Source: Planctomycetota bacterium (lineage in GTDB: Bacteria > Planctomycetota > Planctomycetia > Gemmatales > Gemmataceae). Taken from it: a DNA stretch of 64,000 nt. The stretch is taken from assembly GCA_016873095.1 (NCBI GenBank), contig VGYC01000012.1, forward strand, positions 1-64,000, in the 5' to 3' direction. Made by a program: the position numbers and the translations under genes. How positions within the stretch are numbered: the first letter of the stretch is position 1; each line of letters begins with the position of its first letter. A model generated the notes under the pieces. It was not told the origin of the DNA and did no database searches. It was given only the letters and a program-made list of their open reading frames with translations. Positions 16,148 through 38,644 of the stretch are shown in pieces.

Positions 16148-16183
16148 TGGTCACCTCATTCGTCATGCCGTGCTTCCTCGCGG

Positions 16184-18540: not shown

Positions 18541-18592
18541 CGTGGTCACTCCCGTTGAAAGCCGCAAACGCCTTAAAGTTCGTGCGTACAAT

Positions 18593-18623
18593 GTAATACC
18601 AAAAACGTCATACTAAGTCATAC
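18593..18623. promoter_or_regulatory. Half-site array of the GTATTAC family upstream of the type-1 GTPase
   Basis: GTAATAC at 18593-18599 and GTCATAC at 18607-18613 and 18617-18623 lie 53-83 bases before the GTPase ATG at 18540. The two GTCATAC copies are exactly 10 bp apart. A weaker TGCGTAC at 18583 is 10 bp from the first. The same half-site occurs as stronger arrays at 27101 and 34144. It is likely a repressor site for the GTPase-WD40-CDF unit, judged by pattern only. Confidence 0.55.
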
Positions 18624-18674
18624 TAAAAACTCCGATTCCGACAATTCTTCCGCAGAAATGTTGACGCCAGCTAC

Positions 18675-18706
18675 CTATTCTGTTATTTCATAGAATTATC
18701 GAATAG
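18675..18706. promoter_or_regulatory. Nested inverted repeats before the ArsR gene, possible autoregulatory operator
   Basis: CTATTC (18675-18680) pairs with GAATAG (18701-18706), and inside it ATTCT (18677-18681) pairs with AGAAT (18692-18696). The AT-rich palindromic region ends 18 bases before the regulator's start codon. This is where SmtB/ArsR regulators usually bind their own promoters. The sequence differs from the GTATTAC array 50 bases away, suggesting two regulators share this divergent intergenic region. Confidence 0.4.
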
Positions 18707-18723
18707 TGGAGCGGAGGCGTGCC

Positions 18724-19101
18724 GTGAAAGAGCCGATCCCATCCTGTAAGGCTGACGATCACGACCATGCGGACGCGGCTCTTCCGCCAGCCTCGCTGGA
18801 ACGCGCCGCCCAACTGTTCCGTGCGATGGCAGACGCCCCGAGGCTGAGGATTCTTGACCTCCTCAAGAGCCGCGAACTGTGCGTGACCGAGATCGTGGCG
18901 GCGGTGGGCGAGAAGTTCACCACCGTCTCCCAGCGGATTCGCATCCTTCGCCAGGAGGGGTTGATCGTCCGCCGGCGGGACGGGAACCACTTGTATTACG
19001 CCCTCTCGGATCGGCACGTCGCCGACCTGATCCTTAACGCGCTGGAGCATGCGAACGAACTGAACGCGGCCCCGGCAGCAACTTCCGAAGGAGACGAATA
19101 G
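18724..19101 (+). CDS. ArsR/SmtB-family zinc-sensing repressor
   Basis: A 125-residue winged-helix regulator. The GTG start at 18724 is chosen because GGAGG sits seven bases before it; an upstream in-frame GTG at 18706 lacks a site. The HTH region is about residues 52-85 (CVTEIVAAVGEKFTTVSQRI). Helix alpha-5 carries Asp96, His98, His109 and Glu112, with exactly the D-x-H-x10-H-x2-E spacing of the SmtB/ZiaR alpha-5 zinc site. A His/Cys-rich N-terminus (CKADDHDHAD) may add ligands. It should release DNA when zinc is abundant. It is divergent from the GTPase unit and one base upstream of the His-rich gene. Confidence 0.88.
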   Translation: MKEPIPSCKADDHDHADAALPPASLERAAQLFRAMADAPRLRILDLLKSRELCVTEIVAAVGEKFTTVSQRIRILRQEGLIVRRRDGNHLYYALSDRHVADLILNALEHANELNAAPAATSEGDE

Positions 19102-19102
19102 C

Positions 19103-19444
19103 ATGGCTCACACCCACGAAAACCACGACCACATGCACGGCCCGGCCTGCGGCCACACAGCCATTAAGCACGACGGCCACACCGACTACCTGCACGACGG
19201 CCACCTCCACCACCAGAACGGCGACACGGTGGAGGAACACGCCCTCGCTGTCACCAGCGCCAACCCCGCCGACTGCACGCCGAGCCACGACTGCGGCGCT
19301 CACAACAAGGGCCACCGCCACGGCCCCGGCTGCGGCCACGAAGCAGTACCGCACGGCGACCACGTCGATTACCTCGTCGCCGGCCATCTGCACCATCCGC
19401 ACGGCGACCACTGCGACGATCACGGCAAAGTTCAAACGGCATGA
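19103..19444 (+). CDS. Histidine-rich metal-binding protein with an internal duplication
   Basis: 113 residues with very high His content and scattered Cys. Two related blocks are visible: GPACGHTAIKHDGHTDYLHDGHLHH in the first third (HGPACGH, HDGHTDYL, DGHLHH) and HGPGCGHEAVPHGDHVDYLVAGHLHHPHGDH near the end (HGPGCGH, HGDHVDYL, AGHLHH). There is no signal peptide, so it is probably a cytoplasmic zinc buffer or a donor to the CDF exporter or GTPases. It starts one base after the ArsR stop, with GGAG upstream, so the two are co-transcribed and should be induced together by zinc. Confidence 0.8.
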   Translation: MAHTHENHDHMHGPACGHTAIKHDGHTDYLHDGHLHHQNGDTVEEHALAVTSANPADCTPSHDCGAHNKGHRHGPGCGHEAVPHGDHVDYLVAGHLHHPHGDHCDDHGKVQTA

Positions 19445-19508
19445 GTTTCTTCTGGGAGGTTGGTCGAGGCCCGCGAGGAAATCGTCCCGCACAACTTCGA
19501 CCAGCGGC

Positions 19509-19928
19509 TCAACGAGTGGACAGCAGTTGATGCCGGGAAACCTTGATCGAGGCATCGGGCGTGTGGATTTCGGCCAGCACGACGTTCCCTCCGACTTGCC
19601 CCCAGACGCGCTGCGGCGGGCCGGCACGGCGGGCGCGGTCGTCCCACCCGTTTGGGGTGGAGGACTCCCGGCGGATGACTCCGTAGACCCAGCGGCGGGC
19701 CTGTTCATCGAGGTGCTCGAGGTGGACGCAGCCATCGGGGGTGACGATGATGCGCCCGCGCCGCGTGACGCCGCCCAGAAACACCTCCGCGTCCGCCAGA
19801 TACCCGCAGGACGCGGGGCGTCCGGCCTCGGCCTTGGTTTGGCACCCGACGGAGGCGTCGGTCGGCGCGTCGGAGATGGCTTCCGCCACGAACAGCAGAA
19901 GTGGGATTAAACAGTGCATGTGGGTCAT
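19509..19928 (-). CDS. Small secreted protein of unknown function, end of the zinc-importer operon
   Basis: 139 residues with a signal-peptide-like N-terminus (CLIPLLLFVAEAISDA); the ATG at 19928 has GAGGAA eight bases upstream. The middle reads ADAEVFLGGVTRRGRIIVTPDG, split as ADAEVFLGGV and RRGRIIVTPDG, followed by VHLEHLDEQARRWVYGV. I do not recognise a family. It lies 30 bases after the 86-residue gene and is probably its operon partner. The sequence just beyond its stop (19440-19508) still looks partly coding in another frame (VEPLVEVVRDDFLAGLDQPP), so the gene may be truncated by a frameshift. Confidence 0.6.
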   Translation of the reverse strand: MTHMHCLIPLLLFVAEAISDAPTDASVGCQTKAEAGRPASCGYLADAEVFLGGVTRRGRIIVTPDGCVHLEHLDEQARRWVYGVIRRESSTPNGWDDRARRAGPPQRVWGQVGGNVVLAEIHTPDASIKVSRHQLLSTR

Positions 19929-19958
19929 GGTTGCGGTTCCTCTGTCGAGAAATAGATA

Positions 19959-20219
19959 CTAGGGCTGTTGCTGAATTGCCGCTGCGAGGTCTTCGCGCGT
20001 GACCTCGGCCAGCGGCTTTAGCACCTTGAATTTGCGCTGGTTGCCCTGCTCCAGTACGCCGACAACCGTTTCCACGTCGGGGCAGTCGTCCTCGGCGCAG
20101 TTGAGCTGCATCACCGTCACGGTCAGGTCGTCGCCCAGGCCGAGCAGTTCTCGGGTCCAGCCCTTCAACCGGTCCACGACGAAAGGATCATGACTGGGCT
20201 TCTGCCCGAAAAGGTTCAT
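19959..20219 (-). CDS. Small conserved protein associated with COG0523 GTPases
   Basis: 86 residues ([21 protein letters not shown], split as [11 protein letters not shown] and [10 protein letters not shown]; then [15 protein letters not shown] and [15 protein letters not shown]). Its ATG overlaps the stop of the GTPase gene upstream (20216-20219, ATGA), so it is translationally coupled. Similar small proteins with a Cys-x4-Cys-P segment are, from memory, found beside CobW-like genes in other bacteria, but they have no assigned function. The Cys-x4-Cys could bind metal. It is cytoplasmic, with no signal peptide. Confidence 0.75.
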
Positions 20220-21493
20220 CGTGTCTCACCTCCGTGCTGGTGTTGTGCGGCCAGCGCCTGTTCGGGCGTCGGCCACTCCGGCAATTGGTCGTGGAATGCC
20301 GCCCATGCCTTGGGGCCGCCGGACATCTCCGAGTCGGTCAGCAGGCACCCATCGAGCGCGGCCCGCACCTTCGCCTCATCCAGCTTGCGCCCTATGAAAA
20401 CCAACTCTTGGCGGCGGTCCCCCCATTCGCCGTCGAACTGGCAGACGATGCCCAGCCGGCTCTCGGGGTCGTCGGGCCACTCGCTCTCAGGGACCGTGTC
20501 CCACCAGACGGCGTGCGGGGATAGCTCGGCCACCCGCCCGGCCTGCGACCAGAGACCGATCCAGTTGGGCCGAGTGGCGATCCAGCAGAATCCTTTGGAC
20601 CGCAGCAGCCCCTTCACGATCCGCCTGTCCTGGATCAACTCCCAGAACCGCTCGGGGTGGAACGGCCGGCGCGCCCGGTAGACGAAGCTGGTGATGCCGT
20701 ATTCCGCTGTCTCCGGCTGCTCCTGCCCGCGCAGCACCGTCATCCAGCCGGGCGCTTCGGAGGCTCGGTCGAAGTCGAACCGCTTCGTGTCGAGGATTTC
20801 ACCCAGCGGCACCTTTCCACGCTCAGCGCGGCTGATCTTCGCGGAGGAGTTCAGCGAACGCAGGATGCCCTCGAGTTGATGCAGTTTCTTCGGAGTCAGC
20901 AGGTCCGTCTTGTTGATGACGATCACGTCGGCGAACTCAACCTGATCAACCAGCAGACCCACTACCTCGCGGTCGTCCTCATCGCTGATCGCCATCTCGC
21001 GGTCGGCTAGGGCGTCGGCGGACTCGTAATCGGCGAGGAAGTTGGCCGCATCGACCACGGTCACCATCGTGTCGAGGCGGGCCACCTTCGAGAGCGACTG
21101 TCCCTTTTCGTCCTCGAAGGTGAACGTTTCGGCGACCGGCAACGGCTCGCTGACGCCGGTGGACTCGATCAGCAGATAATCGAAGCGGCCCTCCGTGGCC
21201 AGTTTCGCTACCTCCTGCAGCAAGTCCTCGCGTAACGTGCAGCAGATGCAGCCGTTGGACATCTCCACCAGCTTCTCGTCGGTGCGCGACAGTGCCGCGT
21301 CCCCGGCCTTGACCAACGCGCCGTCGATGTTGACCTCGCTCATGTCGTTGACGATGACGGCGACCTTCAGCCCCTCCCGGTTGGTCAGGACGTGGTTCAG
21401 AAGTGTCGTCTTGCCAGCCCCGAGGAACCCGGAGAGGACGGTCACCGGCAGTTTGTCCCGCTTCGCGCGGGTAGTTTTGCGCTTCGTGGTCAT
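20216..21493 (-). CDS. COG0523 (CobW/ZigA-like) GTPase, type 2, copy A
   Basis: 425 residues. Walker A is [15 protein letters not shown], the switch segment is [12 protein letters not shown], the metal motif is SNGCICCTL and the nucleotide motif is NKTD. The C-terminal CobW_C domain has [18 protein letters not shown] and [16 protein letters not shown]. This is the subtype (GDRRQE near the C-terminus) often called ZigA-like and linked to zinc starvation. It follows the other type-2 GTPase by 37 bases and overlaps the 86-residue gene. It is probably a metallochaperone for a different client from copy B; clients cannot be deduced. Confidence 0.92.
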
Positions 21494-21530
21494 GCTTTCC
21501 TTTCCTCTTTCTCATTTCACACGATCAGGT

Positions 21531-22738
<1,208 letters not shown>

Positions 22739-22739
<1 letters not shown>

Positions 22740-23034
22740 CAGTCCTTCGAGATCACGTCGGGGCCGGCCCCGGCAGTCTTTTCGTACTTGCCGTCGCCGG
22801 CCTTCTTGTACTGCATGAAGCCGAACCGTTCGAGGTTGCTCGCACTGAGGTTCGTGCGCATGTTCGAGTCGGTCCACTTGCGCGGCGTGTTTGGCGCCCC
22901 AATCAAGCGACGCACGGGCCGGCCTGTCTCGGGATGACGCGCGTCAGACTCGGCTCGTTCAGACCGTGGAGGATCTCGAACGTCTCACCGTCCTCACCGC
23001 TGTCTTCGATCACTGCGTACACATACAGGGGCAT
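22739..23034 (-). pseudogene. Cysteine-less FmdB-like (zinc-ribbon paralogue) protein with a 1-base frameshift
   Basis: The ATG at 23034 has GGAGG six bases upstream and reads MPLYVYAVIEDSGEDGETFE... for about 32 codons. The frame must then shift once, near 22936, to continue HPETGRPVRRLIGAPN and end at ISKD, giving 98 residues. The layout matches FmdB-type zinc ribbons (YxYxCxxCG...FE...CPxCGxPVRRL), but every zinc Cys is replaced. The total length is one base short of a whole number of codons, so a single deletion or a base-calling error explains the break. A zinc-free paralogue beside GTPase metallochaperones fits a zinc-sparing response. Confidence 0.7.
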
Positions 23035-23046
23035 TTCAGACCTCCA

Positions 23047-23273
23047 TTACGCTGAGGGCATTGTTGGCGCAGGCCAGGCCGGAAACGGGTCCGGCAGTCT
23101 CTGCAAGCCGCGCGGCCCGAGCGTCAGTTCGGCGTCGGTCAGCAGGCAGTCGTCCAGATCAGCCACGAGCCGACTGCGCTCCAATTTCTGGCCGATGAAG
23201 ACCAGTTCTTGTCGACAGTCGCCCACCTCGGGATGCCAACATAGGACCGCGCGTCCTTGTTTCCCTTCGCCAT
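23047..23273 (-). pseudogene. Chimeric remnant: small-gene start fused to a COG0523 C-terminus
   Basis: From 23273 an ATG with a very good ribosome binding site (AAGGAG, seven bases) reads MAKGNKDARSYVG for about a dozen codons. In another frame from about 23230 the sequence becomes the tail of a type-2 GTPase ([20 protein letters not shown], then LLTDAELTLGPRGL) ending at 23047. The GTPase domain is absent. It appears to be a deletion that joined the start of a small gene (MAKGN resembles some ribosomal-protein starts, not provable) to a fourth GTPase copy. Confidence 0.6.
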
Positions 23274-23317
23274 TGCTTCGCTCCTTATGAAATACTTCCA
23301 TTCCACATTTCCCGAGT

Positions 23318-23881
23318 TCAGACATCCAGAATCACGCAAAGCCGCTTGCCGCCGGGCGGCACCCCCGGCGAACGGTGGTGGACGGCGTCGGCGTGTGCCG
23401 GGTGCTGGTGTCCCTTCAGGAAGACTAGGGCGAACAGTGGCGCAGCCAGCACGTCTTCTGGGGCATCGATGTGGACGTATTCGGTGGTCGGGCCGTGGTA
23501 GGTCGTCACCAGCCGGACTCGCACGTAGTCGCAGTGGAACTTCGGGCAGGACTGCTTGTCCACCACCTCGACCCGCAGCGACGCCTCGTCGACGCCGAAC
23601 TGGGCAAGGAAGCTGCGGCTCAGGCCGACGATGTCTTCCGCCAGCACCGGGTTGGCGATGCACAATTCCCCAAGCGCCTCGGCTGCCCGGGCCTCGGCGG
23701 TTCCTACCGTAACCGATGACCGCCAGTACTGCACGCGGGCCGGTGTAACGGTTTCCGCAATGCCCGGTAACGGCGGCCGGTCCATCACAAGGATGTCCTT
23801 ACGGCCCTGGTCGAACGCGGCGACCTCGTCCCCGTCCCACGCCGTCACTTCTCGCGGCCTCACCAGCGGACTTATCTTCAT
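23318..23881 (-). CDS. DUF1826 family protein
   Basis: 187 residues beginning MKISPLVRPREV; the ATG at 23881 is preceded by AAGGAGG with a seven-base spacer and overlaps the stop of the ferredoxin-like gene (ATGA). Recognised as DUF1826 by the segments SCPKFHCDYVRVRLVTTYHG (H, C and Y/H-rich core), GPTTEYVHID and GVPPGGKRLCVILDV. The function is unknown; the family tends to occur with COG0523 GTPases in zinc-responsive loci, which fits this operon. The conserved Cys/His residues suggest metal binding. Confidence 0.8.
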   Translation of the reverse strand: MKISPLVRPREVTAWDGDEVAAFDQGRKDILVMDRPPLPGIAETVTPARVQYWRSSVTVGTAEARAAEALGELCIANPVLAEDIVGLSRSFLAQFGVDEASLRVEVVDKQSCPKFHCDYVRVRLVTTYHGPTTEYVHIDAPEDVLAAPLFALVFLKGHQHPAHADAVHHRSPGVPPGGKRLCVILDV

Positions 23882-24252
23882 AACGCAACCTCCTTCGTCA
23901 GGAACCTCTCGAACCGGAGAGACTCCAACTTTTCGGGCACGGGCAGCAGCCGTCCTTCGGCGTGACACGAACGCGCCCAGGTGACCAGCCGCTCGTACAC
24001 TTCGGCTCCCTCCATGCCGCCGAGCCAGACGTTGCACTCGGGCAGCATGACCATGGCGACATTGGCCAAATCGCAAGGACCCAGGCAGCCGCTAATGGTC
24101 AACTGCACTGTGCAGTTGAGCTTCTCGGCCTTCCAGATGTGCTTGAGTTGCTCGACAGGCAGTTCCGGCCTGCCTCGATCCGTGCGCCCGCAGCAGCAGC
24201 CCTCGCAGAACACCAACTGGGCCAGCGCCATCCGCTTCGTAGTCAGTTGCAC
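23878..24252 (-). CDS. Thioredoxin-fold [2Fe-2S] ferredoxin-like protein
   Basis: 124 residues from a GTG with GAGGAGG seven bases upstream; it overlaps the permease gene by 10 bases. Cysteines at 16, 19, 20, 21, 47, 56 and 60 include the spaced set FCEGC...SGCLGPC typical of thioredoxin-like 2Fe-2S ferredoxins and their metal-binding relatives. The C-terminal half (VWLGGMEGAEVYERLVTWA) fits this fold. Similar proteins occur beside CobW-like genes. It may carry a cluster or bind zinc or copper; nothing in the sequence decides. Confidence 0.75.
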   Translation of the reverse strand: MQLTTKRMALAQLVFCEGCCCGRTDRGRPELPVEQLKHIWKAEKLNCTVQLTISGCLGPCDLANVAMVMLPECNVWLGGMEGAEVYERLVTWARSCHAEGRLLPVPEKLESLRFERFLTKEVAL

Positions 24253-25136
24253 CGGGACACCTCCTCTGCCATAGCGACTTTGTTCGGCTTGTCTTTCGTC
24301 ACCGGAATCGAGGCAGTCGGTCGAAGCCGATGCGACGCCGAGCGGGCCGCGTAGGCGGCCATGAACGCTGCGGTACAGCAGAGAACGATGGCCGCGCCCG
24401 ACGACGTTTCAGCGACGTAGGACAGCGTCAGCCCGGCGACCGAGCAGGCCGTCGCCAGCAACGCCCCGAGCAGCATCCGCCAGGGCATCCGGTCGGACAG
24501 CAGCGCCGCCGTCGCCGCCGGGGTGATGAGCAGAGCGTTGGTCAGAATGACACCGACCGTCTGGATGCCGGTGACTACGGCCAGGGCGAGCAGGCCCAGG
24601 AGCAGGAAACGCATCCGGTCGGAACGCAGGCCGATCACCTCGGCGTGGGTTGGGTCGCACGCGGTCAGTTCCAACTCCTTGTGGAAGATCGCCAGGCACA
24701 GCAACACGACCGCCGCGACGCCGCCGATGAACCAAAGGTCTTCCGTCGTAACACCCAGGACGTTGCCGAAGAGCATGTGCGTCAGGTCGCGGTAGGAGCG
24801 CGTCCGACTCATCAGCAACACGCCGAGGGCGAACATGCCGGTGAACACGACGCCGATGGCCGCGTCCTCCTTGACCGCGTGCCGCCGTGAGGCCCAGCCG
24901 ATCAGGAGCCCCGTCGCCAGTGCCGCGCCGAATCCGCCCAGCGACAGGCTCCAGCCGAACAGGTGCGCGATAACCAGTCCCGGCAACGTCGTGTGCGCCA
25001 GTGCGTCTCCGATGAACGCCATCCGTCGCTGTACGACGTGGACGCCGAGGACGGCGCAGGTGACGCCGACCAGCACCGCCGCCAGCAGCGCGTGCTGCAT
25101 GAAGACATGGCGGAACGGCTCGATCAGCCAGTCCAT
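24243..25136 (-). CDS. znuB: Zinc/manganese-type ABC transporter permease
   Basis: 297 residues with about eight to nine membrane helices and the ABC-3 family landmarks GDALAHTTLPGLVIAHLFG, LFGNVLGVT and VGVILTNALLITPAATA. It forms the membrane channel of a cluster-A1 importer with the ATPase and binding protein encoded just upstream; it overlaps the ATPase gene by 13 bases. Zinc rather than manganese is favoured by the surrounding genes, not by the permease itself. The C-terminal ~25 residues are a charged cytoplasmic tail. Confidence 0.88.
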   Translation of the reverse strand: MDWLIEPFRHVFMQHALLAAVLVGVTCAVLGVHVVQRRMAFIGDALAHTTLPGLVIAHLFGWSLSLGGFGAALATGLLIGWASRRHAVKEDAAIGVVFTGMFALGVLLMSRTRSYRDLTHMLFGNVLGVTTEDLWFIGGVAAVVLLCLAIFHKELELTACDPTHAEVIGLRSDRMRFLLLGLLALAVVTGIQTVGVILTNALLITPAATAALLSDRMPWRMLLGALLATACSVAGLTLSYVAETSSGAAIVLCCTAAFMAAYAARSASHRLRPTASIPVTKDKPNKVAMAEEVSRCN

Positions 25137-25885
25137 GCCCGCTCCTTCCCGGCAACGCCGTTGCGCGACGAATCCGTCTCGACCTCTCCATCGCGCAGGC
25201 GCACGACAGCGCCGAACGCTCCGTCCAGGAGGGTCAGGTCGTGGGTGGCGACCACCAGCGTTTTGCCCTGGTTGCGCAGGGAGCGCATCGCGTCGTAGAT
25301 CGTCTCCTGTGTCCGGGCGTCCACGCCGTTGGACGGCTCGTCAAGCAGCAGCAAGTCCGCCTCCTGAGCCAGAGCGCGAGCCAGCAGCGCCCTCTGTTGC
25401 TGCCCGCCCGACAGCTTGCCGATCTGCTGGCCGGCGAGCGAGTCGAGCCCCAGCCGTTCGAGCACCGCCGTCGCGATCTGCCGATCGCGCCGTCCTGGCC
25501 ACGCCAGCCAGCCGAGGTGGACGTAGCGACCCGTCAACACCAACCGCTCAACGCTGATCGGAAAGCCCCAGTCGATCTCGCCGCGCTGCGGCAGATACGC
25601 GACTCGGTGGTGGCATGCGCCGACCGGGTTCCCGTGAACGCGAATCGCCCCCGAGGCAACCGGCAACAGCCCGGCCACGGCCTTCAGGAACGTACTCTTG
25701 CCCGAACCGTTGGGGCCGACCAGTGCTGCGCAGGTTCCGCACGATACCCGCACGCTCACGCCGCGAAGTGCCGGACACGACGCGCCGGGGTAGGTCACGA
25801 CCAGCGACTCCGTCAACAGCGCGGGCGCGCCCCGCACCGGGTCGGCGTGCCAGCCACGCGAGTAGGGGATCCAAGGATCTTTCAT
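25124..25885 (-). CDS. znuC: Zinc/manganese-type ABC transporter ATPase
   Basis: 253 residues. Walker A is GPNGSGKST, the Q-loop region is YLPQRGEIDWGFP, the signature is LSGGQQQRALLARALAQ, Walker B is LLLLDEPSNGVD and the switch His lies in VATHDLTLL. The PQRGEIDWGFPISV segment is characteristic of the Mn/Zn importer ATPases. Its start overlaps the stop of the binding-protein gene (25882-25885, ATGA). It powers import through the permease encoded next. Confidence 0.9.
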   Translation of the reverse strand: MKDPWIPYSRGWHADPVRGAPALLTESLVVTYPGASCPALRGVSVRVSCGTCAALVGPNGSGKSTFLKAVAGLLPVASGAIRVHGNPVGACHHRVAYLPQRGEIDWGFPISVERLVLTGRYVHLGWLAWPGRRDRQIATAVLERLGLDSLAGQQIGKLSGGQQQRALLARALAQEADLLLLDEPSNGVDARTQETIYDAMRSLRNQGKTLVVATHDLTLLDGAFGAVVRLRDGEVETDSSRNGVAGKERAWTG

Positions 25886-26841
25886 GGTTTCAGGGCTTCC
25901 ACGATGACCGTGACGTTGTGGCGGATCATCTTCTCGTAGGTGTCGCCCTCGGAGCCGGGTTGGCCCAGCGCGTCGGTGAACAGCGGTGGTGCCAGCTTGA
26001 CCCCGGCCTCTTTGGCGAGACGTTCCATGAGCCTGGGGTTGTGGACATTCTCAGCGAAGATGGCCGGCACCCTTGCCGCCTTGACTGACTCGACCAGCTT
26101 GGCGAACGTGGCCGACGACGGATCCGACGCCTCCGTAGACACCGACGTGAGCAGGGTACCAACCACGTCGAAGTCGTGCCGCGCGGCGAAGTAGCCGAAC
26201 GTGTCGTGGCTCGTGACTAGCTTGCGGTTCTGCTTCGGCAACGTGGCGACCTTCTCGACCACCCAGGCGTCGAGCGCCTGGAGTTTGGCGAGGTAAGCGT
26301 CTGCGTTGGCCTTGTACTTCGGGGCATTGGGTGGGTCAGCCTCTGCCAGCGCGTCGCGGATGACGCCGACCATGTGGATGGCGTTCTTCACGTCGTGCCA
26401 GACGTGCGGGTCGTCTTCATGCTCGTCCTTGTGCTCATGCTTCTCGCCCGGCTTGTGAGCGTGGTGGCACTCGCCCTCGCGCAGTTCCAGTCCCTCGGTG
26501 ACGACGACACGTTTGGCCTTCGACTTTGAGGACGAGTGAAGTTTGTCGAGCCACGCCTCGAAACCGACGCCGTTCTCGAAGATCACGTCCGCCTCGGCGA
26601 GCGAGACGCCGTCTTTCGGCGTTGGCTCGAATGTGTGCGCATCGCCGTTTGGGCCGACGAGGATCACCACGTCGGCACTGTCGCCGGCGACGTTCTTGAC
26701 GAGGTCGCCGAGGACGCTGTACGTCGCCCCGACACGCAGTTTGCCGGGACGCCACGCCGAGTTGTAGCAACCACCGAGTAGCAGCAGCGGCGCGGCCACT
26801 ATCGCTACCAACAAAGACATCCGCCATAATCGACCTCTCAT
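25882..26841 (-). CDS. znuA: Zinc ABC transporter substrate-binding lipoprotein
   Basis: 319 residues from the ATG with AGGAGG six bases upstream; the longer open frame has no site. The N-terminus is a lipoprotein signal with lipobox LLGGC. The ZnuA landmarks are LGDLVKNVAGDSADV, GPNGDAHTFEPTPKD (first His ligand), a His-rich loop (ECHHAHKPGEKHEHKDEHED), DPHVWHDVKNA, TSHDTFGYFAARHDF and AIFAENVHNPRL. The His-rich loop is typical of zinc rather than manganese binding proteins. It is the first confident gene of the long operon running to 19509. It captures zinc outside the cytoplasmic membrane. Confidence 0.9.
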   Translation of the reverse strand: MRGRLWRMSLLVAIVAAPLLLLGGCYNSAWRPGKLRVGATYSVLGDLVKNVAGDSADVVILVGPNGDAHTFEPTPKDGVSLAEADVIFENGVGFEAWLDKLHSSSKSKAKRVVVTEGLELREGECHHAHKPGEKHEHKDEHEDDPHVWHDVKNAIHMVGVIRDALAEADPPNAPKYKANADAYLAKLQALDAWVVEKVATLPKQNRKLVTSHDTFGYFAARHDFDVVGTLLTSVSTEASDPSSATFAKLVESVKAARVPAIFAENVHNPRLMERLAKEAGVKLAPPLFTDALGQPGSEGDTYEKMIRHNVTVIVEALKP

Positions 26842-27095
26842 GCCACACCTCCTGACTGGATTGGAACGATTGCCTCTCGACGCGCCATCGCCGCTTGCCT
26901 GCGGCGACTCAAATATTCGCCGTCCACGACTTCGCCGCCGGCACGGGTATCGCTGGAACGGTTTCGACCCCAAGCTCGTCGACGATCACGCGCCCACGAC
27001 TCGCCGCACCATTCAATGACGACACCGGCGTGGAAGGCCGTCGGTGGGAAAAACCACGAGAGAGTGGAACAATAGGAGCGCGCGCCATGAAGCAC
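26838..27095 (-). CDS. Possible small ORF between the operator array and znuA
   Basis: An 85-codon frame from GTG at 27095, six bases inside the operator array at 27101-27140, runs without interruption to TGA at 26838, overlapping the znuA ATG as ATGA. It has no visible ribosome binding site and no recognisable family (VVIEWCGESWARDRRRAW; GGEVVDGEYLSRRRQAAMAR). The exact coupling to znuA is the only argument for coding. It could equally be a long leader, or the remnant of a lost gene. The gap 26842-27100 holds nothing else that I can support. Confidence 0.25.
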   Translation of the reverse strand: MLHGARSYCSTLSWFFPPTAFHAGVVIEWCGESWARDRRRAWGRNRSSDTRAGGEVVDGEYLSRRRQAAMARREAIVPIQSGGVA

Positions 27096-27100
27096 CGCAG

Positions 27101-27140
27101 GTATTACATTGTATTACACCAATGTATTACTTTGTAATAC
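27101..27140. promoter_or_regulatory. Four GTATTAC/GTAATAC half-sites, candidate zinc operator
   Basis: GTATTAC occurs at 27101, 27111 and 27124 and GTAATAC at 27134. The last two form a perfect 7-3-7 palindrome (27124-27140). Steps are 10, 13 and 10 bp. The array lies 260 bases before znuA and 328 bases before the divergent DUF1559 gene, so it may serve either or both. The same half-sites form arrays at 18593 and 34144, making a shared regulator likely. The match to known Zur boxes is only loose. Confidence 0.7.
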
Positions 27141-29136: not shown

Positions 29137-31308
29137 CTACTTGCCGAAGCGCGGCCCGCCGTGCTGCACTTTGAATGGCTTGGAGACGGCGATGAACAGA
29201 CCAGGGGAGCGGGCCACCAGCTTGCCGACTCCAGGACTGGTCGGGCGGAGATTACGAAAGACGGCTTGGCCGGCCTGATTGGTTCGCAGTTGATAGCTTC
29301 GCGACGCGCCGCCCGAGACCACCGTCAACGTGATGAGTATGCCTTGCTTCCGCACCGCATTGCCGTACTCATCGAAGACTTGGACCAGTACCGGCCCCAT
29401 CGGGCGGCCGACCGCGGCCCCCTTGGGAGGCGCGCTCATGCCGAGCTTCTTGGCATCGGCAGCCAGGATCGTGAAGGCGACGCTCTCCACATCCGCGGTG
29501 CCGCTCAACGATGCCAGCAGCTTCTTGATGCCCGCGACCTCGATGCGCAGGTCGCTGAAACGCGCCTGTCCGTTGCTATCGGTGGTCATCAGCAGCGTGC
29601 CCAGCAGCGCCCCCGTCCCGGATGCCAGAGAAAGGCTCACGGTCCTGCCCGCTTCGCGCACGCTGTTGCCGTTCTGATCCAGAAGCTGCACCGTCACAGT
29701 CGGGTTGATCGGAGCGCCGGCGACGGTGTTTACCGGCTGCTGAAAGAAGGCCAGCTTCTGGGCCGAGCCGGCGCTGATCGTGAAGGGATTGCTGACCGCC
29801 GGCGTGATGCCGCTGCGGCTGGCGCGGAGCTGGTAGGTCCCGGCGATGGAAATGCTCAGGTTGTCGAAGGTGGCCAGCCCCGCTGAGTTTGTGGTCCGTG
29901 TCAGCGTCCCGCTCAGGCCCGTGCCGGAAACGAGGCTGATCGTGATGGTGACGCCGGCCTGCTGAAAGTTGTTGCCGAACTGGTCTTTCAACTGCACGGT
30001 GACCGGCGGACTGATGGTGCTGCCGGCCGGCGCGTTGCTCGGCTGCTGCACGAAGACGATGTTGCGCAGCACCGGCTGGTTGGGGGGCGGCGTGGCGGTG
30101 TCGCCGATGGTCAGCACGGCCACGCTGTTGGCTCCCAGCAGACCGTTGGTGTCGTCTTGCTGGTCGATGTAGTAGTTGTTGATGCTGGACGGGCCAGCGT
30201 TGCTCAGCGTGAGATTGACCGTGCGATTCTGCGCCGGCTGTCCGTCGTCGCTGATCGGGATTGAGAAGGTCTTGGTCGTTTCCTGGTCTTCAAAGGTGAA
30301 GGAGCCGCTCGTCGCGGTGTAGTCCTGGCCGGCGACCGCGCTGCCGTCGCTGGTCGCATAATTGACGGTGAGCCGGCCGTCGCTGCCGCCGACGCGCTGC
30401 ACGGTGATGGTGGCGTTACCGTCCGTTTTCTGCACCGTATACGAAGCGGCATCGAACTCCACCTGGCCGACGCTGACAACGGAGAAATAGATCTTGGTCG
30501 ACGAGCTCTCGCTGAAGCCGGACGTGTTCGCGGTGCTCAGGCCGTCGTCGCCAAGGTAGCCGGAGATCTTGACGGTGACTTCATAGCGTCCCTTTTGACT
30601 GAAGCCCCAGTTGAAATGGCTATGTCCGCCGGCAACGATCCACAGGGCGTCATCGGCGCCGATGCCATCGGTCGTGTCCAGACCCTCGCTGTCGGGGTTG
30701 CTGACGCCGTCGTCGTAGGTGGACATGCCCACGGCCGGCGCGGAAACGCCGCTTTGCCACACCGAGAAAATCCCGCTGCCCGCCTGCCCGTCCGGCTGGA
30801 AGTGCTTGACATCCACGAGGCTGAGTTTGAGCCAACGGCCCACGCCGCTGACGCGGCCCTTGGACTCGGTGAGTGGGTTGTAGCGATCAAACTCGCTGGC
30901 CGTGACGCCGTAGCCGGCGACGCCCAGGTAGAGCAGTTCCGAGTCCTGGCTCTGCGGTGCCCGGTAATAGGTTGCCCCCGCCGCCACGCCGATGAAATCG
31001 AACTTGGCGCCGGCCGGCCGTGCCTCCTCGGCATCGACGCCGACGTAGAGCAACGCAACGTCCGGATCATGGGACACGACGTTGTCATTGTCATCATGTT
31101 GCAGCGACCAGGTTCCGGTCGCGCCGCCGGAATACTGGAGATTGATGTCCGCGTGCTCGCTGGCCATGAACGTGGATAGCGTCGCCGGCGCCAGCCGGTC
31201 CTCGAGCGTCTCCACCTGGGCGCGCACGCGCCGCCTGGTCCTTGCCGAGCGCCCTCGAAGCAAGGACCAGCGCGTCGCCAGGCGTTCCAGCCAGCCATTC
31301 CAGCTCAT
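29137..31308 (-). CDS. Large surface protein: choice-of-anchor M-like, Calx-beta and Ig-like repeats
   Basis: 723 residues; GAGG five bases before the ATG. The N-terminus has a basic stretch and the planctomycete motif VETLEDRLAPA. Residues ~48-275 resemble the choice-of-anchor M / surface-anchored repeat domain (SEHADINLQY, LLYVGVDAEEARPAGAKFDF, GGHSHFNWGFSQKGRYEV). A Calx-beta domain follows (~280-395), then three Ig-like (Big-1 type) repeats of ~100 residues, each with VQLxDQxGN or VQVFDEYGN. In actinobacteria similar anchor domains are linked to Zn/Mn-type ABC importers, which fits its place in this zinc locus. It is the last gene of the operon starting at 34129. Confidence 0.8.
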   Translation of the reverse strand: MSWNGWLERLATRWSLLRGRSARTRRRVRAQVETLEDRLAPATLSTFMASEHADINLQYSGGATGTWSLQHDDNDNVVSHDPDVALLYVGVDAEEARPAGAKFDFIGVAAGATYYRAPQSQDSELLYLGVAGYGVTASEFDRYNPLTESKGRVSGVGRWLKLSLVDVKHFQPDGQAGSGIFSVWQSGVSAPAVGMSTYDDGVSNPDSEGLDTTDGIGADDALWIVAGGHSHFNWGFSQKGRYEVTVKISGYLGDDGLSTANTSGFSESSSTKIYFSVVSVGQVEFDAASYTVQKTDGNATITVQRVGGSDGRLTVNYATSDGSAVAGQDYTATSGSFTFEDQETTKTFSIPISDDGQPAQNRTVNLTLSNAGPSSINNYYIDQQDDTNGLLGANSVAVLTIGDTATPPPNQPVLRNIVFVQQPSNAPAGSTISPPVTVQLKDQFGNNFQQAGVTITISLVSGTGLSGTLTRTTNSAGLATFDNLSISIAGTYQLRASRSGITPAVSNPFTISAGSAQKLAFFQQPVNTVAGAPINPTVTVQLLDQNGNSVREAGRTVSLSLASGTGALLGTLLMTTDSNGQARFSDLRIEVAGIKKLLASLSGTADVESVAFTILAADAKKLGMSAPPKGAAVGRPMGPVLVQVFDEYGNAVRKQGILITLTVVSGGASRSYQLRTNQAGQAVFRNLRPTSPGVGKLVARSPGLFIAVSKPFKVQHGGPRFGK

Positions 31309-31326
31309 GGGAACCTCGCTTCGGCA

Positions 31327-32940
31327 TCAAACCACGGGAGTGAATTCCGGCTCGCCGCCGAAGGCCAGGAGAAAGGCGTTGTTGTGCGCCTGAAAGAACA
31401 GGTCGTCGAGGCCGTCGCCGTTCATGTCGGCGAATTGCGCCTGCCCGGGCACGAATGTGCCGCCATGCTGGAAAATCTTGCGCGGCGTGTCGAAGACGCC
31501 GCCGTTGCCCAGCGACAGCAAGAACGCATTGTTCTTGGTCTGGAAGACGAGATCGATGAGGTTGTCGCTGTTGAGATGGGCGAAGCGCGCCTGGCCGGCC
31601 ATGAAGCTGCCGCCATGCTTGGCAATCTGCGTCGCGCCCGTGAAGGCGGCGCCGTTCGACCGCGACCACAGGAAGCGGTTGTCCATGGTCTGGAAAACGA
31701 GGTCGTCTTTGCCGTCGTTGTCGATATCGACAAACTGCGCCTGCCCGGCCATGAACGTGCCGCCGTGCTTGAAAAACTGCGTCGGGGCGCCGAAGGCCGC
31801 GCCATTGGACAGCGACACCAGGAAGCGTTTGTCTTTGGTCTGGAAGATCAGGTCGGCGTTGTCGTCGCCGTTGACGTCGGCAAACTGCGCCTGCCCGGCC
31901 ATGAACGTGCCGCCGTGCTTGAAAAACTGCACCGGGGCGCCGAAGGCCGCGCCATTGGACAGCGACACCAGGAAGCGTTTGTCTTTGGTCTGGAAGATCA
32001 GGTCGGCGTTGTCGTCGCCGTTGACGTCGGCAAACTGCGCCTGCCCGGCCATGAACGTACCGCCGTGCTTGAAAAACTGCACCGGGGCGCCGAAGGCCGC
32101 GCCCGTGGACAACGACACCAGGAAGCGATTGTCTTTGGTCTGGAAGATGAGGTCGTCGCGGCCGTCGCCGTTGACATCGGCGTATTGCGCTTGTCCGGCC
32201 ATGAAGTTGCCGCCGTGCTTGGCAATCGGGCTCACGGTTGACGGCGTCAGGCCTGGCTGATCGACATCGAAGAAATAGGTGACGTCGCCGCTGGAGAAGG
32301 TCTGGCCGCCGATGACGCCGCTGGCCTCGAAGGTGATCTCATAGCGGCCGCGGCGGGTGAACACCCAGTTCAGGTCTTCATGTCCGTCTTCCAGGAGGGT
32401 GATCATGTCCGTGGCGGAGATGCCGTCGGCCGTGGCCATGAAAACTTCCGGCCCGCCGATGGTCGAACGGAACAGGGAGAACACGCCGCCCGTGGGCGCG
32501 GTCATGGACTTGAGCTGCACCTTGATCTGCCCGTCGTCGAAGGTGCCGGGGGCGATCTCCTCGGTGCCAAGGCCGAGCAGCAGCACCTCCGGGTTGGGCG
32601 GGGAATGCGGCAGCTGCCAGATCTGGACGCCGGCGCCGACGCCGATGAAGTCGAATGCTGCGTCTGCCGGACGCGGCGTCCGCGCATGTGCGTTCACATA
32701 AAGCAGGGCCTCGTTGGGCGCGAACTCGGTGTCGGTTTCCTCATCGTGAATGTGCAGATCGAAGGCACCTCCCTCGAAAGCAATGCCAATATCGACGTGG
32801 TCACTCGTCAGCACCGCCGTGAACGGGGCCGCCGGCACGAGTCGATTCTCGAGCTCTTCGACGGCAGGACGGAGACGCCGCCCCTGCGGACGAGTCGCGG
32901 GCGTGTGGCGTAGGCGTTGCAAGCAGCGTTGCAGCATCAT
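31327..32940 (-). CDS. Surface protein: choice-of-anchor M-like domain plus six FG-GAP-like 50-residue repeats
   Basis: 537 residues from the ATG with AGGAGG nine bases upstream. The N-terminal motif VEELENRLVPA marks planctomycete surface export. Residues ~40-225 form the same choice-of-anchor M-like domain as the downstream gene (SDHVDIGIAFEGGAFDLHIH, FDFIGVGAGVQIWQLP, GHEDLNWVFTRRGRYEI). Residues ~238 to the end are six 50-residue repeats of the type KHGGTFMAGQAQFADVNGDD, with acidic Ca-binding-like loops as in FG-GAP/VCBS propellers. The regular His in HEDLNW and HVDI could be metal ligands. It is 34 bases after the fusion-protein gene and 18 bases before the next surface gene: one operon. 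Confidence 0.82.
   Translation of the reverse strand: MMLQRCLQRLRHTPATRPQGRRLRPAVEELENRLVPAAPFTAVLTSDHVDIGIAFEGGAFDLHIHDEETDTEFAPNEALLYVNAHARTPRPADAAFDFIGVGAGVQIWQLPHSPPNPEVLLLGLGTEEIAPGTFDDGQIKVQLKSMTAPTGGVFSLFRSTIGGPEVFMATADGISATDMITLLEDGHEDLNWVFTRRGRYEITFEASGVIGGQTFSSGDVTYFFDVDQPGLTPSTVSPIAKHGGNFMAGQAQYADVNGDGRDDLIFQTKDNRFLVSLSTGAAFGAPVQFFKHGGTFMAGQAQFADVNGDDNADLIFQTKDKRFLVSLSNGAAFGAPVQFFKHGGTFMAGQAQFADVNGDDNADLIFQTKDKRFLVSLSNGAAFGAPTQFFKHGGTFMAGQAQFVDIDNDGKDDLVFQTMDNRFLWSRSNGAAFTGATQIAKHGGSFMAGQARFAHLNSDNLIDLVFQTKNNAFLLSLGNGGVFDTPRKIFQHGGTFVPGQAQFADMNGDGLDDLFFQAHNNAFLLAFGGEPEFTPVV
31330..32220 (-). repeat. Six tandem 150-bp coding repeats
   Basis: The DNA motif GCCGGCCATGAA-C-TGCCGCC recurs at exact 150-bp steps (CTGCCCGGCC-type starts at 31441, 31591, 31741, 31891, 32041 and 32191), each encoding one 50-residue FG-GAP-like unit. 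The three central units are almost identical at the base level (for example 31801-31860 equals 31951-32010), while outer units have drifted. This indicates recent unequal exchange or gene conversion and likely length variation between strains. Confidence 0.9.
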
Positions 32941-32974: not shown

Positions 32975-34129
32975 CTATTCCGGTGGCAAGGCAAAGTTAA
33001 AGCCGCTGTCGGCCCAGGTCTTGATCTGCGAAGCGGCGATCAGGTCCACGTGTCCGTCGCCATACAGGTAGTTGGCGTAGCCGGTGACGCGCTCCTCGCG
33101 CGGCAGGTTGTAGCCGCCGCCGAAACGGTTCGGCTGGATGTCCGCGCAGATGCGGCCCCACACTCCCTTGGGCGACTTGAACCAGTTGCGCGAGTGCGTG
33201 TGGTCCTCGCTGGTCGCGGTCCCTTTCTCATCCGAGGACGTGAAGACCGTGATCGTCCGCGACGTGGCCTGCATGGTGAAGATGTTCAGCGACTCGCCGT
33301 CGCCCGGCACGCACACGTATTCGTTGAGCACGTAGCTGGTTCCCTTGTCGGCCAGGCGCTGCTCGGCCTGCGGATCGTACGGGCAAATGCGGATGGTCTC
33401 GACGTTCTCCGTATAGGGGGCGAGGGTGTAGATCCACGTCTTGGTGAAGTCGGACGTGCGGTGGGTGGAGATCGGAAACTTGCCGCGATGGTCGTTGTGG
33501 AACATGTGCAGCGCGAGACCGATCTGCTTGAGGTTGTTGGCGCACTGGGTGCGCGCGGCCATCTCGCGGACTTTCTGCACGGCCGGGACAAGAAGCGCGA
33601 TGAGCACGGCAATGATGGCGAGCACCACGAGCAGTTCGATGAGGGTAAAGCCTGGCCGCGTGTCGCGGCGGCGCTTGCTGTGTGGATCGCGCCGGCGCGG
33701 CCCCTCGCTCCAGTGACCCTGGTGCAGGCGGCGCCTGTGCTCGTCGATCCGCTTATGATCGACGTGCCAGGTGCATTCCCCGCAGAGGGGCGCCTGCCGA
33801 TAGCACGCATCGCAGTAGAGCGGCCCGCCGGCAAAATACTGATCCAGGCGGCGGCGATCGTCGCCGCTGCGCTCACCCGGCCGTTCGGGCAAGGTCAGCT
33901 GCCCGCCGCAGCTGGCGCACGGCTCGCTGCGCTGCGCGGCAATCACCGCGGCGAAGTGGTCGTGAATGCCGCGCGGCACAATGCCGCGTCCCTTGCACAA
34001 CGGGCAGCACTCCTGCAACAGCGTCGTGATCGACTTGCGGCTAAACTCGCTCTTGTTGGGCAACTGGTTGAGCAGTTCCGCAAGCTCGGCGTCAACCTTG
34101 AACGCGACCATAGCCATGCGTTCCGACAT
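32975..34129 (-). CDS. Fusion: ribbon-helix-helix + zinc ribbons + prepilin helix + DUF1559
   Basis: 384 residues from the ATG at 34129 (GAGGG upstream). Residues ~6-38 ([20 protein letters not shown], then SEFSRKSI) look like a CopG-type ribbon-helix-helix DNA-binding domain. Residues 41-136 are Cys/His-rich: C41-C42-C45, C71-C74, C106-C109 and a C2H2-like C116-C119-H131-H136. After a basic linker comes a full prepilin signal (RPG at 158-160, then [20 protein letters not shown]), then a normal DUF1559 domain ending [11 protein letters not shown]. So a DNA-binding-like, metal-binding cytoplasmic part is joined to an extracytoplasmic domain through one membrane helix. It is the first gene of the surface-protein operon, with four operator half-sites starting 15 bases upstream. 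An ancestral gene fusion without function is the alternative. Confidence 0.8.
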
Positions 34130-34143
34130 TGCGCCCTCGCGAT

Positions 34144-34180
34144 ATATTACAACGTTATACTCAGTATTACGTTGTAATAC
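34144..34180. promoter_or_regulatory. Four half-sites at exact 10-bp steps before the fusion gene
   Basis: ATATTAC (34144), GTTATAC (34154), GTATTAC (34164) and GTAATAC (34174) start exactly ten bases apart. The second pair is a perfect 7-3-7 palindrome and the first pair an imperfect one. The array ends 15 bases before the ATG at 34129, so bound protein would block transcription start or elongation. Ten-bp periodicity places all half-sites on one DNA face, as expected for cooperative dimers such as ribbon-helix-helix repressors. Confidence 0.75.
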
Positions 34181-34733: not shown

Positions 34734-35003
34734 TTACGCTTGCACCAGTGCCGCTACCCCGCCGCGCTCCGTCGCCACTGCCAGCATCTTGTCGTCGGGA
34801 GACCAGGCAACGCAGGTCAGCGCGGCGGCAAAGTCAACCCGATCGACGACCTTGGCACGCCGAGCCGGTTGCCAGAACAAGACAACATCGGCGGCGGCCG
34901 AAGCGAGCAGCGGCCCGGCATGCTGGTACGCCAGGCAGGCGACTCGGTCGTCGTGCCCCTTGAACTGCCATGGCGTCGTGCCCGCCGGCCCGGCCCTGGA
35001 CAT
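34734..35003 (-). pseudogene. WD40 C-terminal remnant
   Basis: About 90 codons of the last two blades: GPAGTTPWQFKGHDDRVACL, LAYQHAGPLLASAAADVVLFW and CVAWSPDDKMLAVATERGG. They match the ends of the WD40 proteins at 16184 and 37588 (LAYQHAGPLLASAAADGEVILW). No N-terminal blades are found upstream; 35004-35380 contains no gene that I can support, only a hairpin and a 19-bp tandem repeat. It is a remnant of a third GTPase-WD40 module. Confidence 0.75.
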
Positions 35004-35380
35004 CGAATCGCTTGCGGGCAAGGGATGGCACATGCACAAACCTGGCCGAGTACAACCGAGTACAGCGACTCTCCGCTGCAACCTATTGTGAAATAGCATG
35101 TTACAACAAGAGATGACTCGGCCACCAGATTTTCTTGCTGGCCGAGTGTCCTGAATGTGACCAGGAATCGCCTCATCTTCCGGGAGGGTGAGGCTGCAGG
35201 AGGCCATGATCGCGCTGTTCATCGCCGATCGCGCTGCTCATCGCCCCGGGGCCTGTAACCAAATTCCAGGCCCGTCGCCGATACCAGCACCTTGCCGAGC
35301 GTCAGGAGAGCATACGGCCGCACTTGCCAGCATCAATCGTTAATGCGGCGTATAACGAGATGAAGCAAAGGAGAGGCGGC
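35004..35380. other. Gene-free stretch with a hairpin and a short tandem repeat
   Basis: ACTCGGCCA (35116-35124) pairs with TGGCCGAGT (35139-35147), a nine-bp stem with a 14-base loop; the motif CTGGCCGAGT also occurs at 35042. GATCGCGCTG(T/C)TCATCGCC is tandemly repeated at 35208-35226 and 35227-35245. An ATG at 35206 with AGGAGG upstream opens a frame of about 45 codons, which has no recognisable family. I see no supported gene. The hairpin lacks a T-run and is not a classic terminator. Confidence 0.4.
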
Positions 35381-36659: not shown

Positions 36660-36953
36660 TCATGACTCCTTTACTTTCTTCGCTTCTTTGGAATCGTCTT
36701 TCTTGCGGTAGCTCGTTCCGTACTTCTTCTGAAACCGCTCGACGCGGCCTGCCGAATCCACATACTTCATCTTGCCTGTGTAGAACGGGTGCGACGCGCT
36801 CGAAATGTCAAGACTGTAAAGCGGATACTCCTTGCCGTCCGTCCACACGATTGTCTGCGAAGTCTTGGCGGTCGAGCGCGACAGGAAGGCAAAGTTGGCG
36901 GAGGCGTCTTGAAAGACCACCTCGCGATAGACTGGATGAATCCCTTTCTTCAT
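36660..36953 (-). CDS. rpmE2: Ribosomal protein L31 type B (zinc-independent form)
   Basis: 97 residues ([39 protein letters not shown]). Type-A L31 carries a CxxC zinc site; here no cysteine is present, so this is the type-B form that replaces zinc-containing L31 and frees zinc when the metal is scarce. Such paralogues are classic members of zinc-starvation regulons. It lies between the unknown gene copy B and the GTPase, all in one tight minus-strand run. It appears to be the only undamaged gene in the 34.2-39.1 kb module. Confidence 0.92.
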
Positions 36954-37587: not shown

Positions 37588-38644
37588 TCATGTCGATTTC
37601 ATCAGTGGATTATTCAAGACCAGGGCGGCAACGCCGCCGCGCGCGTCCCCCACCGCCAGGGCGCCATCATCCGGCGCCCAGGCGATGTGCGTCAGTTCCG
37701 TCGCGAGTTCCACACGGCACAAGGCACGTTCGTGCCGGTCTGGCTGCCACAGTATGACCTCGCCGTCGGCCGCCGCAGAGGCCAGCAACGGCCCCGCATG
37801 CTGGTACGCCAGGCTCGTCACCTTATCGCCGTGTCCTTCCAGCAACTTGGGCTTTGTGCCCGCCGGCCCGGCCCCAGACACATCCCACACGCAAGGGACC
37901 GGGCTGCCCCCCGTGGCGAGGTATCGGCTCGTGTGATCCCACGACAGTTCACGGACCTTGCTCGGATAGCCGGACATCATCAGGTCCTCGCCGGTGCGCA
38001 TGATCCAGAAGTGAACCGTGCAATCCTGATCGCCGGTGGCCAGATGCTTGGCGTCTGGACTCCAGGCCAGCACCAGCTGCGAGCCCTGCCATTTGAGGGT
38101 CTGTAACGGCTCGGCGCGGTCGGCATGAAGCATGGCGATCTGCCCGTAGGCCGCCGACGCCAACTCGCGCGCGCCCGGCTTCCACTGGATGTCGGCAACG
38201 GTGCTGGGATGATCGGCGAACTCGCGTACCAACTCTCCGGCCGCGCTCCACAGGCGCACTTTTCGGCCGGCCGCCGAGGCCAACAGCGTCCCGTCAACGC
38301 TCCAAACGACGCGCTCAACCCAGGGGGCGCCGCCTTCAAGCGCGCACAGCATGCGGCCATCGCGCGCATCCCAGAGCTTGACCGAACCGTCCTGGCCGAC
38401 GCTGGCCAGCGGGCCACTTTGTGGATGCCAGGCGATGGCGGTGGTGCCGAAGCCATGCCCCGGCCAAGCTGCGAAGTATGCGGCCGGTCGTGGCCTCGCA
38501 CAAGGTAATGGGCCCGCCCACGGCTGCCGCCGCCAGACTGCTGCCGTCCGCCGACCAGGCCACGGCAATGGCGTGATCCCCGATGTCGGCTTGCCAACGC
38601 CTGGTCCACGACACGTCCGCTCGTGGTTTCTTCACGCCAAACAT
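37588..38644 (-). pseudogene. WD40 protein copy 2, one frameshift
   Basis: It begins MFGVKKPRADVSW at 38644, overlapping the GTPase fragment by the same 13 bases as the intact pair. The frame is broken after RILRSLAG by one extra base in a CCCC/GGGG run at 38458-38461. It then continues HGFGTTAIAWHPQSGPLASV through the remaining blades to GDARGGVAALVLNN. Corrected length is about 351 residues, aligned along its whole length with the WD40 at 16184. A homopolymer lesion could be a sequencing error, so the gene may be functional. Confidence 0.8.

Follow-up and report, generated by a model that had tools for sequence, protein, structure and literature searches.

This work deals with a stretch of 64,000 nucleotides (hereafter the window) of contig VGYC01000012.1 from a planctomycete of the family Gemmataceae (assembly GCA_016873095.1; genome of 8.36 Mb, G000 in our survey). 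One operon on its minus strand encodes a DUF1559 pseudopilin, fused to a ribbon-helix-helix-like (RHH-like) domain with CxxC pairs, and two choice-of-anchor M (choice_M) exoproteins. The sequence comparisons give good support to the view that these exoprotein genes are under zinc control and have an obligate pseudopilin partner. Together with a nearby ATP-binding cassette (ABC) importer they would form a cell-envelope cassette for zinc starvation, in which the importer, the RHH-like/pilin fusion and two exoproteins with HxD/HxH motifs stand under one operator; the probability that we give to this reading is about 0.58. An earlier interpretation of the same DNA (the sequence-only reading) had proposed that the two large proteins capture zinc at the cell surface and hand it to the importer, and it is partly supported. 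The zinc-capture idea has an experimental precedent in Corynebacterium diphtheriae and is not new. What is added here is the fixed, zinc-controlled partnership with a pseudopilin carrying a histidine motif, as well as the RHH-like/CxxC fusion.

The operon starts at 34129, upstream of the part that the earlier interpretation had covered, and its first open reading frame (ORF) occupies 34129-32975 on the minus strand. The features of the operon and the two operators are as follows.

34144-34180: operator made up of four half-sites of 7 bp each, spaced by 10 bp, whose end lies some 15 bp ahead of the ATG at 34129
33701-34129, minus strand: RHH-like domain, then four CxxC pairs and, at the C-terminal end, CxxCxWH..H..H (143 residues)
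32975-33697, minus strand: DUF1559 pseudopilin of about 240 residues (PF07596, 54.8 bits, gathering score 23.3; TIGR02532, 30.6 bits, cut-off 16.3)
33635-33652, minus strand: prepilin motif GFTLIE of the pseudopilin
33179-33205, minus strand: motif DHTHSRNWF of the pseudopilin
31327-32940, minus strand: choice_M protein of 537 residues from the ATG at 32940 (NF038134, 110.5 bits; TIGR03769, 33.4 bits), with the leader LENRLVPA, the choice_M domain (32245-32829) and then FG-GAP repeats (FG-GAP_3 match)
32788-32799, 32740-32757 and 32365-32385, minus strand: its motifs HVDI, LHIHDE and GHEDLNW
29137-31308, minus strand: choice_M protein of 723 residues (NF038134, 76.4 bits; TIGR03769, 31.0 bits), with the leader LEDRLAPA, the choice_M domain (30523-31179) and, beyond it, domains of the Calx-beta and Ig-like (Big_1/invasin) types
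31144-31155 and 30607-30630, minus strand: its motifs HADI and GGHSHFNW
27101-27140: matching double operator before the operon of a zinc-type ABC importer

The pseudopilin ORF is separated from the gene of the 537-residue protein by 34 bp, and the two choice_M genes are separated by 18 bp. On the minus strand, the operator half-sites read GTATTAC-N3-GTAATAC-N3-GTATAAC-N3-GTAATAT. The sequence GTATTACnnnGTAATAC is present without mismatch at 34164-34180 and 27124-27140, accompanied by imperfect copies at 34144-34160 and 27101-27117, and in the whole genome the perfect sequence is found at two places only, in front of the choice_M operon and in front of the importer. In terms of gene arrangement and sites, the earlier claim of an operon behind a zinc-type operator is borne out. 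Within the window, seven sites with up to three mismatches were observed, versus 0.15 expected from shuffled sequences.

The operator was also searched in 95 genomes of the same family, allowing one mismatch and using the backward pattern as control. It was found directly before znuA/aztC-like genes in G049, G081, G082, G084, G085, G086 and G087 (loci L189 and L195-L200) and before zigA in G004 (L182). Some further same-family sites showed no evident zinc link, and matches to the control pattern were far rarer. Moreover, a site with up to three mismatches lies 60-103 bp before the start of the cassette in five of the ten same-family loci, and the summed mismatches amount to 39, versus a minimum of 51 in 200 dinucleotide shuffles. 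Since the operator precedes znuA/aztC-like genes and zigA across the family, it is, judged by its distribution, a zinc box of this planctomycete family. The membership in the zinc regulon that had been claimed earlier stands on this shared operator and on the importer, CobW, ZigA and L31 genes nearby.

Concerning the regulator, a clear Zur was sought in the genome and discarded, as both of its Fur-family proteins, one of them next to katG, remain below the Zur cut-off. Several cassette-bearing relatives gave no Fur-family match in assemblies that are 81-87% complete, an absence that is uninformative. A zinc box before the L31/ZigA pair was likewise dismissed, with no operator site there in the window search. 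Other sites and genes deserve mention on their own account. In the same genome, a duplicated segment has zinc-box-like sites behind its transketolase-like gene (L014, contig 380, 2354-2714), and the sequence there, GGATTACAATGTAATAC, also precedes znuA-like genes of another genus. A weaker site (L015, contig 80, 4817-4833) has on one side the gene of a transporter-like, His-rich membrane protein and on the other an ArsR-type regulator gene, which is followed by a large DabA-like gene (names by sequence reading). In a distant planctomycete, a Fur-family gene adjoins a short choice_M gene (L101, 7984-8791), possibly a Zur pair.

The partnership with the pseudopilin was followed in about 480 genomes, consisting of the 95 of the same family and 392 planctomycetes sampled across the phylum, with G000 in both sets. 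In the subfamily search of these genomes, matches of at least 290 bits were taken as the strong pseudopilin subfamily. They correspond to 18 distinct loci (11 in the same family and 8 in the phylum sample, with the window counted in both), and every one of them adjoins a choice_M gene. Seen from the other side, the strong subfamily, with its DHTH motif, is present at 18 of 26 choice_M loci and some DUF1559 gene at 23, while L084, L087 and L096 have no DUF1559 neighbour. First-look counts gave roughly 30 to 290 DUF1559 candidate matches per planctomycete genome, and with so many genes a chance adjacency to any of them would be expected in a few per cent of cases by our estimate. For the strong subfamily, which has close to one copy per genome, the pairing at 18 of 18 loci is not due to chance. 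The pair was also found outside the phylum, on a Verrucomicrobiales contig (L103), and in an unassigned bacterium (L102).

The pseudopilin relatives in other loci share 37-72% identity with that of the window over the full length, and the paired proteins have in common an invariant D-H-T-H and W within DHTHSxNWF. This motif echoes the GHxHxNWxF of the choice_M domain, a resemblance for which no common origin is claimed. TIGR04294 (H-X9-DG-CTERM) is not among the 19 families listed for the pseudopilin ORF up to E = 1, and a DGHV is present. Regarding function, the pilin would most likely serve to export or present the exoproteins, and perhaps it also takes a direct part in zinc handling.

Second-tier pilins (210-258 bits; L203-L210) and a weaker truncated match (L211) were recovered as well. 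These DUF1559 pilins (L203-L212) carry DHVH, EHVH or DHVE motifs and mostly adjoin genes of PEP-CTERM exoproteins; in L212 a Fur-family gene is also adjacent. Many of the PEP-CTERM partners present HxD and HxH about 135-145 residues apart. A common ancestry of these exoproteins with choice_M is unsupported (probability of 0.3% in profile comparison). The pairing of a pilin with an exoprotein may follow a more general rule among planctomycetes.

Both exoproteins have the N-terminal domain in common, as the sequence-only reading had stated: they surpass the curated cut-offs of NF038134 (choice_anch_M, 55 bits) and, narrowly, of TIGR03769 (30.9 bits). The only three NF038134 matches of the genome are within these two proteins, and NF038134 is found in 13 of the 95 same-family genomes; among the 392 planctomycetes of the phylum sample, 13 have it over cut-off. 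Each protein opens with a short leader and LE(D/N)RL(A/V)PA, a motif that also precedes the domain in many relatives. In 59 aligned planctomycete domains, the HxD motif conserves its histidine in 55 and its aspartate in 57, and the HxH motif its first histidine in 51 and its second in 49; the complete set is present in 45. The motif region of the 723-residue protein reads GGHSHFNWGFSQKGRYEV, and the 537-residue protein carries an extra LHIHDE at residues 62-67. An AlphaFold2 model of the latter's domain (mean predicted local distance difference test score, pLDDT, of 93.1) is a beta-sandwich with HxD in an early strand and GHxD in a late one. The fold search with this model gave generic beta-sandwich matches in the PDB (best Z 6.3), which represent the common sandwich only, and no family or function was drawn from them. 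Sequence searches of solved structures found none significantly related to the domain. The conservation in the aligned domains is consistent with the histidines of HxD/HxH acting as zinc ligands.

The RHH-like/CxxC part is in frame with the pseudopilin and forms with it the single ORF that leads the operon. The name is based on the sequence pattern VAFKVxxxLAxxLxxLPNKSxFIRxAI, and this part reached the cut-off of no Pfam or NCBIfam family, RHH families included, and had no significant PDB match. Stand-alone relatives are single-copy in 85 of the 95 same-family genomes (L046-L074 among the loci), and the 31 that were aligned stop where the pilin fusion begins. In G060, two extra copies are divergent from the pilin and choice_M genes (L079, L080), the arrangement classically seen with local regulators. 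The protein is a candidate zinc-responsive regulator. Its autoregulation by the same operator was considered and rejected, with no sites around the stand-alone copies examined in relatives. An annotation slip was also discarded as the origin of the fusion, given that no in-frame ATG, GTG or TTG precedes the prepilin motif and the relatives' proteins end at the junction. The frame is open as read, but with two frame breaks in the zigA close by, an assembly error at the junction is possible.

The importer lies about 2.2 kb downstream of the choice_M genes, past two genes on the plus strand, and is preceded by an operator copy of its own; this agrees with the proximity to Znu-type genes noticed earlier. 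The importer and the zinc-related genes around it are listed below.

25882-26973, minus strand: metal-binding lipoprotein of the importer, ZnuA/AztC type (PF01297, 290 bits)
25124-25885, minus strand: importer ATPase, AztA-like (AztA, 203.1 bits, cut-off 220)
24243-25136, minus strand: importer permease, AztB-like (AztB, 235.7 bits, cut-off 280; PF00950, 238.3 bits)
23878-24252, minus strand: small CxxC protein, with a relative also in the G056 cluster
within 23318-24076, minus strand: DUF1826 protein
21531-22877, 20216-21493 and 17203-18591, minus strand: three further CobW-type GTPases
15203-16147, minus strand: cation-efflux protein
36660-36953: type B (zinc-free) L31
35380-36640, minus strand: ZigA-type GTPase gene with two frame shifts, downstream of L31

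The importer as a whole (24243-26973) matches the general models PF01297 and PF00950 and stays below the NCBIfam equivalog cut-offs of AztABC, that of AztC being 350 bits. Its binding protein carries the His-rich loop ECHHAHKPGEKHEHKDEHEDDPH, and such loops are typical of zinc-binding proteins. CobW (COG0523) GTPases, ZigA and type B L31 together make a typical zinc-response neighbourhood. Zinc genes also stand beside other cassettes, with AztABC and CobW in L075 and ZigA in L091 and L092. The frame-broken ZigA is either a pseudogene or the product of assembly errors. As side observations, a zinc island continues over 15203-24252 on the minus strand, and WD40-type beta-propeller ORFs on the same strand (34734-35222 and 37588-38568), of which the shorter may be a fragment, flank the broken ZigA and L31.

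Putting these elements together, when zinc is scarce a repressor would leave the operator. The two exoproteins would then be made and exported, and would bind zinc outside the cytoplasmic membrane through their HxD/HxH residues. The pseudopilin would insert into the inner membrane and be processed by the prepilin peptidase, and a pseudopilus containing it could export or present the choice_M exoproteins, with the DHTH motif binding zinc or contacting the domain once it is loaded with zinc. Zinc set free close to the periplasm might then pass to the AztC-like binding protein and on to the importer.

Several observations weigh against the zinc-starvation cassette. The 537-residue protein reads GHEDLNWVFTRRGRYEI, with an aspartate at the second histidine position: of the motifs quoted in the sequence-only reading, HADI/HVDI, LLYV and FDFIGV are in place, as is GHSH in the 723-residue protein, and the 537-residue protein has GHED instead. 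A surface anchor had been assumed too, and it is not supported, as no PEP-CTERM or sortase-type model is among the NCBIfam matches of either window protein up to E = 1. No anchor signal having been found, their retention at the surface is unexplained; PEP-CTERM is present in several choice_M relatives. In five choice_M loci (L086, L095, L098, L099 and L100) the neighbour belongs to another DUF1559 subfamily, and for the pilin AlphaFold2 gave a model too poor for use, with a mean pLDDT of 47.6. The scores of the importer's binding protein nearly tie between AztC (280.9 bits) and the Deinococcus MntC (288 bits), both below cut-off, and they do not settle the metal. The remaining points come from C. 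diphtheriae, where histidine residues of the HxD/HxH proteins matter in growth assays and the His-to-Ala mutants are still zinc-responsive in vitro, and where znuF and znuG mutants grew normally, for which sequestration was suggested (PMC12445094).

This last result is in line with the alternative that survives best, in which the exoproteins would be surface zinc stores or would sequester zinc, from competitors or in excess, and not feed the importer, the pilin only aiding secretion. In C. diphtheriae lacking the importer, ZnuF and ZnuG limited growth, and their own deletion brought no defect (PMC12445094). However, an operator in common with the importer fits uptake under scarcity better than the storage of an excess, and we regard storage as unlikely here. 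Even less probable, in our opinion, is that the exoproteins are adhesins or matrix proteins made under zinc limitation, with a structural metal at HxD/HxH and the C-terminal modules doing the work. Calx-beta, Ig-like and FG-GAP are the kinds of module typically seen in proteins of adhesion and of the matrix, and the weak matches of the common sandwich fold include fimbrial adhesin domains (Z of about 6). Nevertheless, these modules change from one choice_M locus to the next, whereas the HxD/HxH domain and the pilin are retained, and some members (L093, L095, L099, L102) are hardly more than the domain plus PEP-CTERM. Manganese instead of zinc, which the slightly higher MntC score of the binding protein would favour, is very improbable in view of the His-rich loop, the CobW/ZigA GTPases and zinc-free L31 nearby and the operator before zigA in G004.

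The zinc-starvation cassette could be part of something broader, although this extension is speculative and we rather doubt it. Planctomycetes might use dedicated pseudopilins for individual metal-binding exoproteins, the DHTH pilin itself carrying zinc within a pseudopilus by which choice_M is loaded, exported or retrieved. In the window, the cytoplasmic leader of the prepilin would be a zinc-sensing RHH-like repressor freed by the prepilin peptidase, which would tie gene control to assembly.

To our knowledge, DUF1559 pseudopilins, a hallmark of planctomycetes, have no established role, and for one of their subfamilies there is now a constant partner, together with a regulon and a substrate that can be put to the test. 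Furthermore, the HxD/HxH zinc proteins would extend from Actinobacteria to Planctomycetota and Verrucomicrobiota, a zinc operator is supplied for a planctomycete family without an identified Zur, and the pairing suggests an undescribed surface device for zinc gathering. The open literature, with subscription papers and preprints outside the scope of the search, yielded no paper that links zinc in planctomycetes to either choice-of-anchor M or DUF1559.

Among known systems, ZnuE, ZnuF and ZnuG of C. diphtheriae are the experimental support for the actinobacterial parallel drawn earlier: their domains are bracketed by HxD and HxH, they are zinc-regulated together with an ABC importer and they respond to zinc in thermal shift assays (PMC12445094). 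Their locus is under the control of Zur (PMC6711530). The window proteins resemble them, as well as CmrA/CmrA2, in the HxD/HxH domain, the zinc control and the link to a cluster 9 ABC importer, and the bracketed domain has about 150 residues in C. diphtheriae, the distance from histidine to histidine being 139 and 177 residues in the window. In contrast, C. diphtheriae uses sortase or membrane anchors, has no pseudopilin and has a different envelope, whereas the window proteins have no recognisable anchor, have a pseudopilin and bear FG-GAP, Calx-beta and Ig-like modules unlike those of C. diphtheriae. With the transporter-associated surface proteins of Actinobacteria (TIGR03769/TIGR03773) they share the TIGR03769 repeat, but clearly miss the TIGR03773 cut-off (27.8 and 67.9 versus 190.3 bits).

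ZepA is a Zur-controlled PEP-CTERM exoprotein of Anabaena and some bacteria of the Planctomycetes-Verrucomicrobia-Chlamydiae (PVC) group (PMC10957091). Compared by features alone, it is similar in being a secreted zinc protein in a zinc gene neighbourhood, near COG0523 and FUR genes. At L093 and L100 the choice_M proteins contain its motif H-X2-9-H-[FY]-H, but the window proteins have neither this motif nor PEP-CTERM. The polyhistidine triad (Pht) proteins of streptococci are zinc proteins of the surface as well, believed to supply an importer (PMC12445094); their motif and domain are other than those of choice_M, and no sequence relation is claimed. Finally, GspG-type pseudopilins and type IV pilins match the window pilin over the N-terminal helix, and from other DUF1559 (PF07596) proteins it is distinguished by its short length of about 240 residues, the DHTHSxNWF motif and its fixed partner gene.

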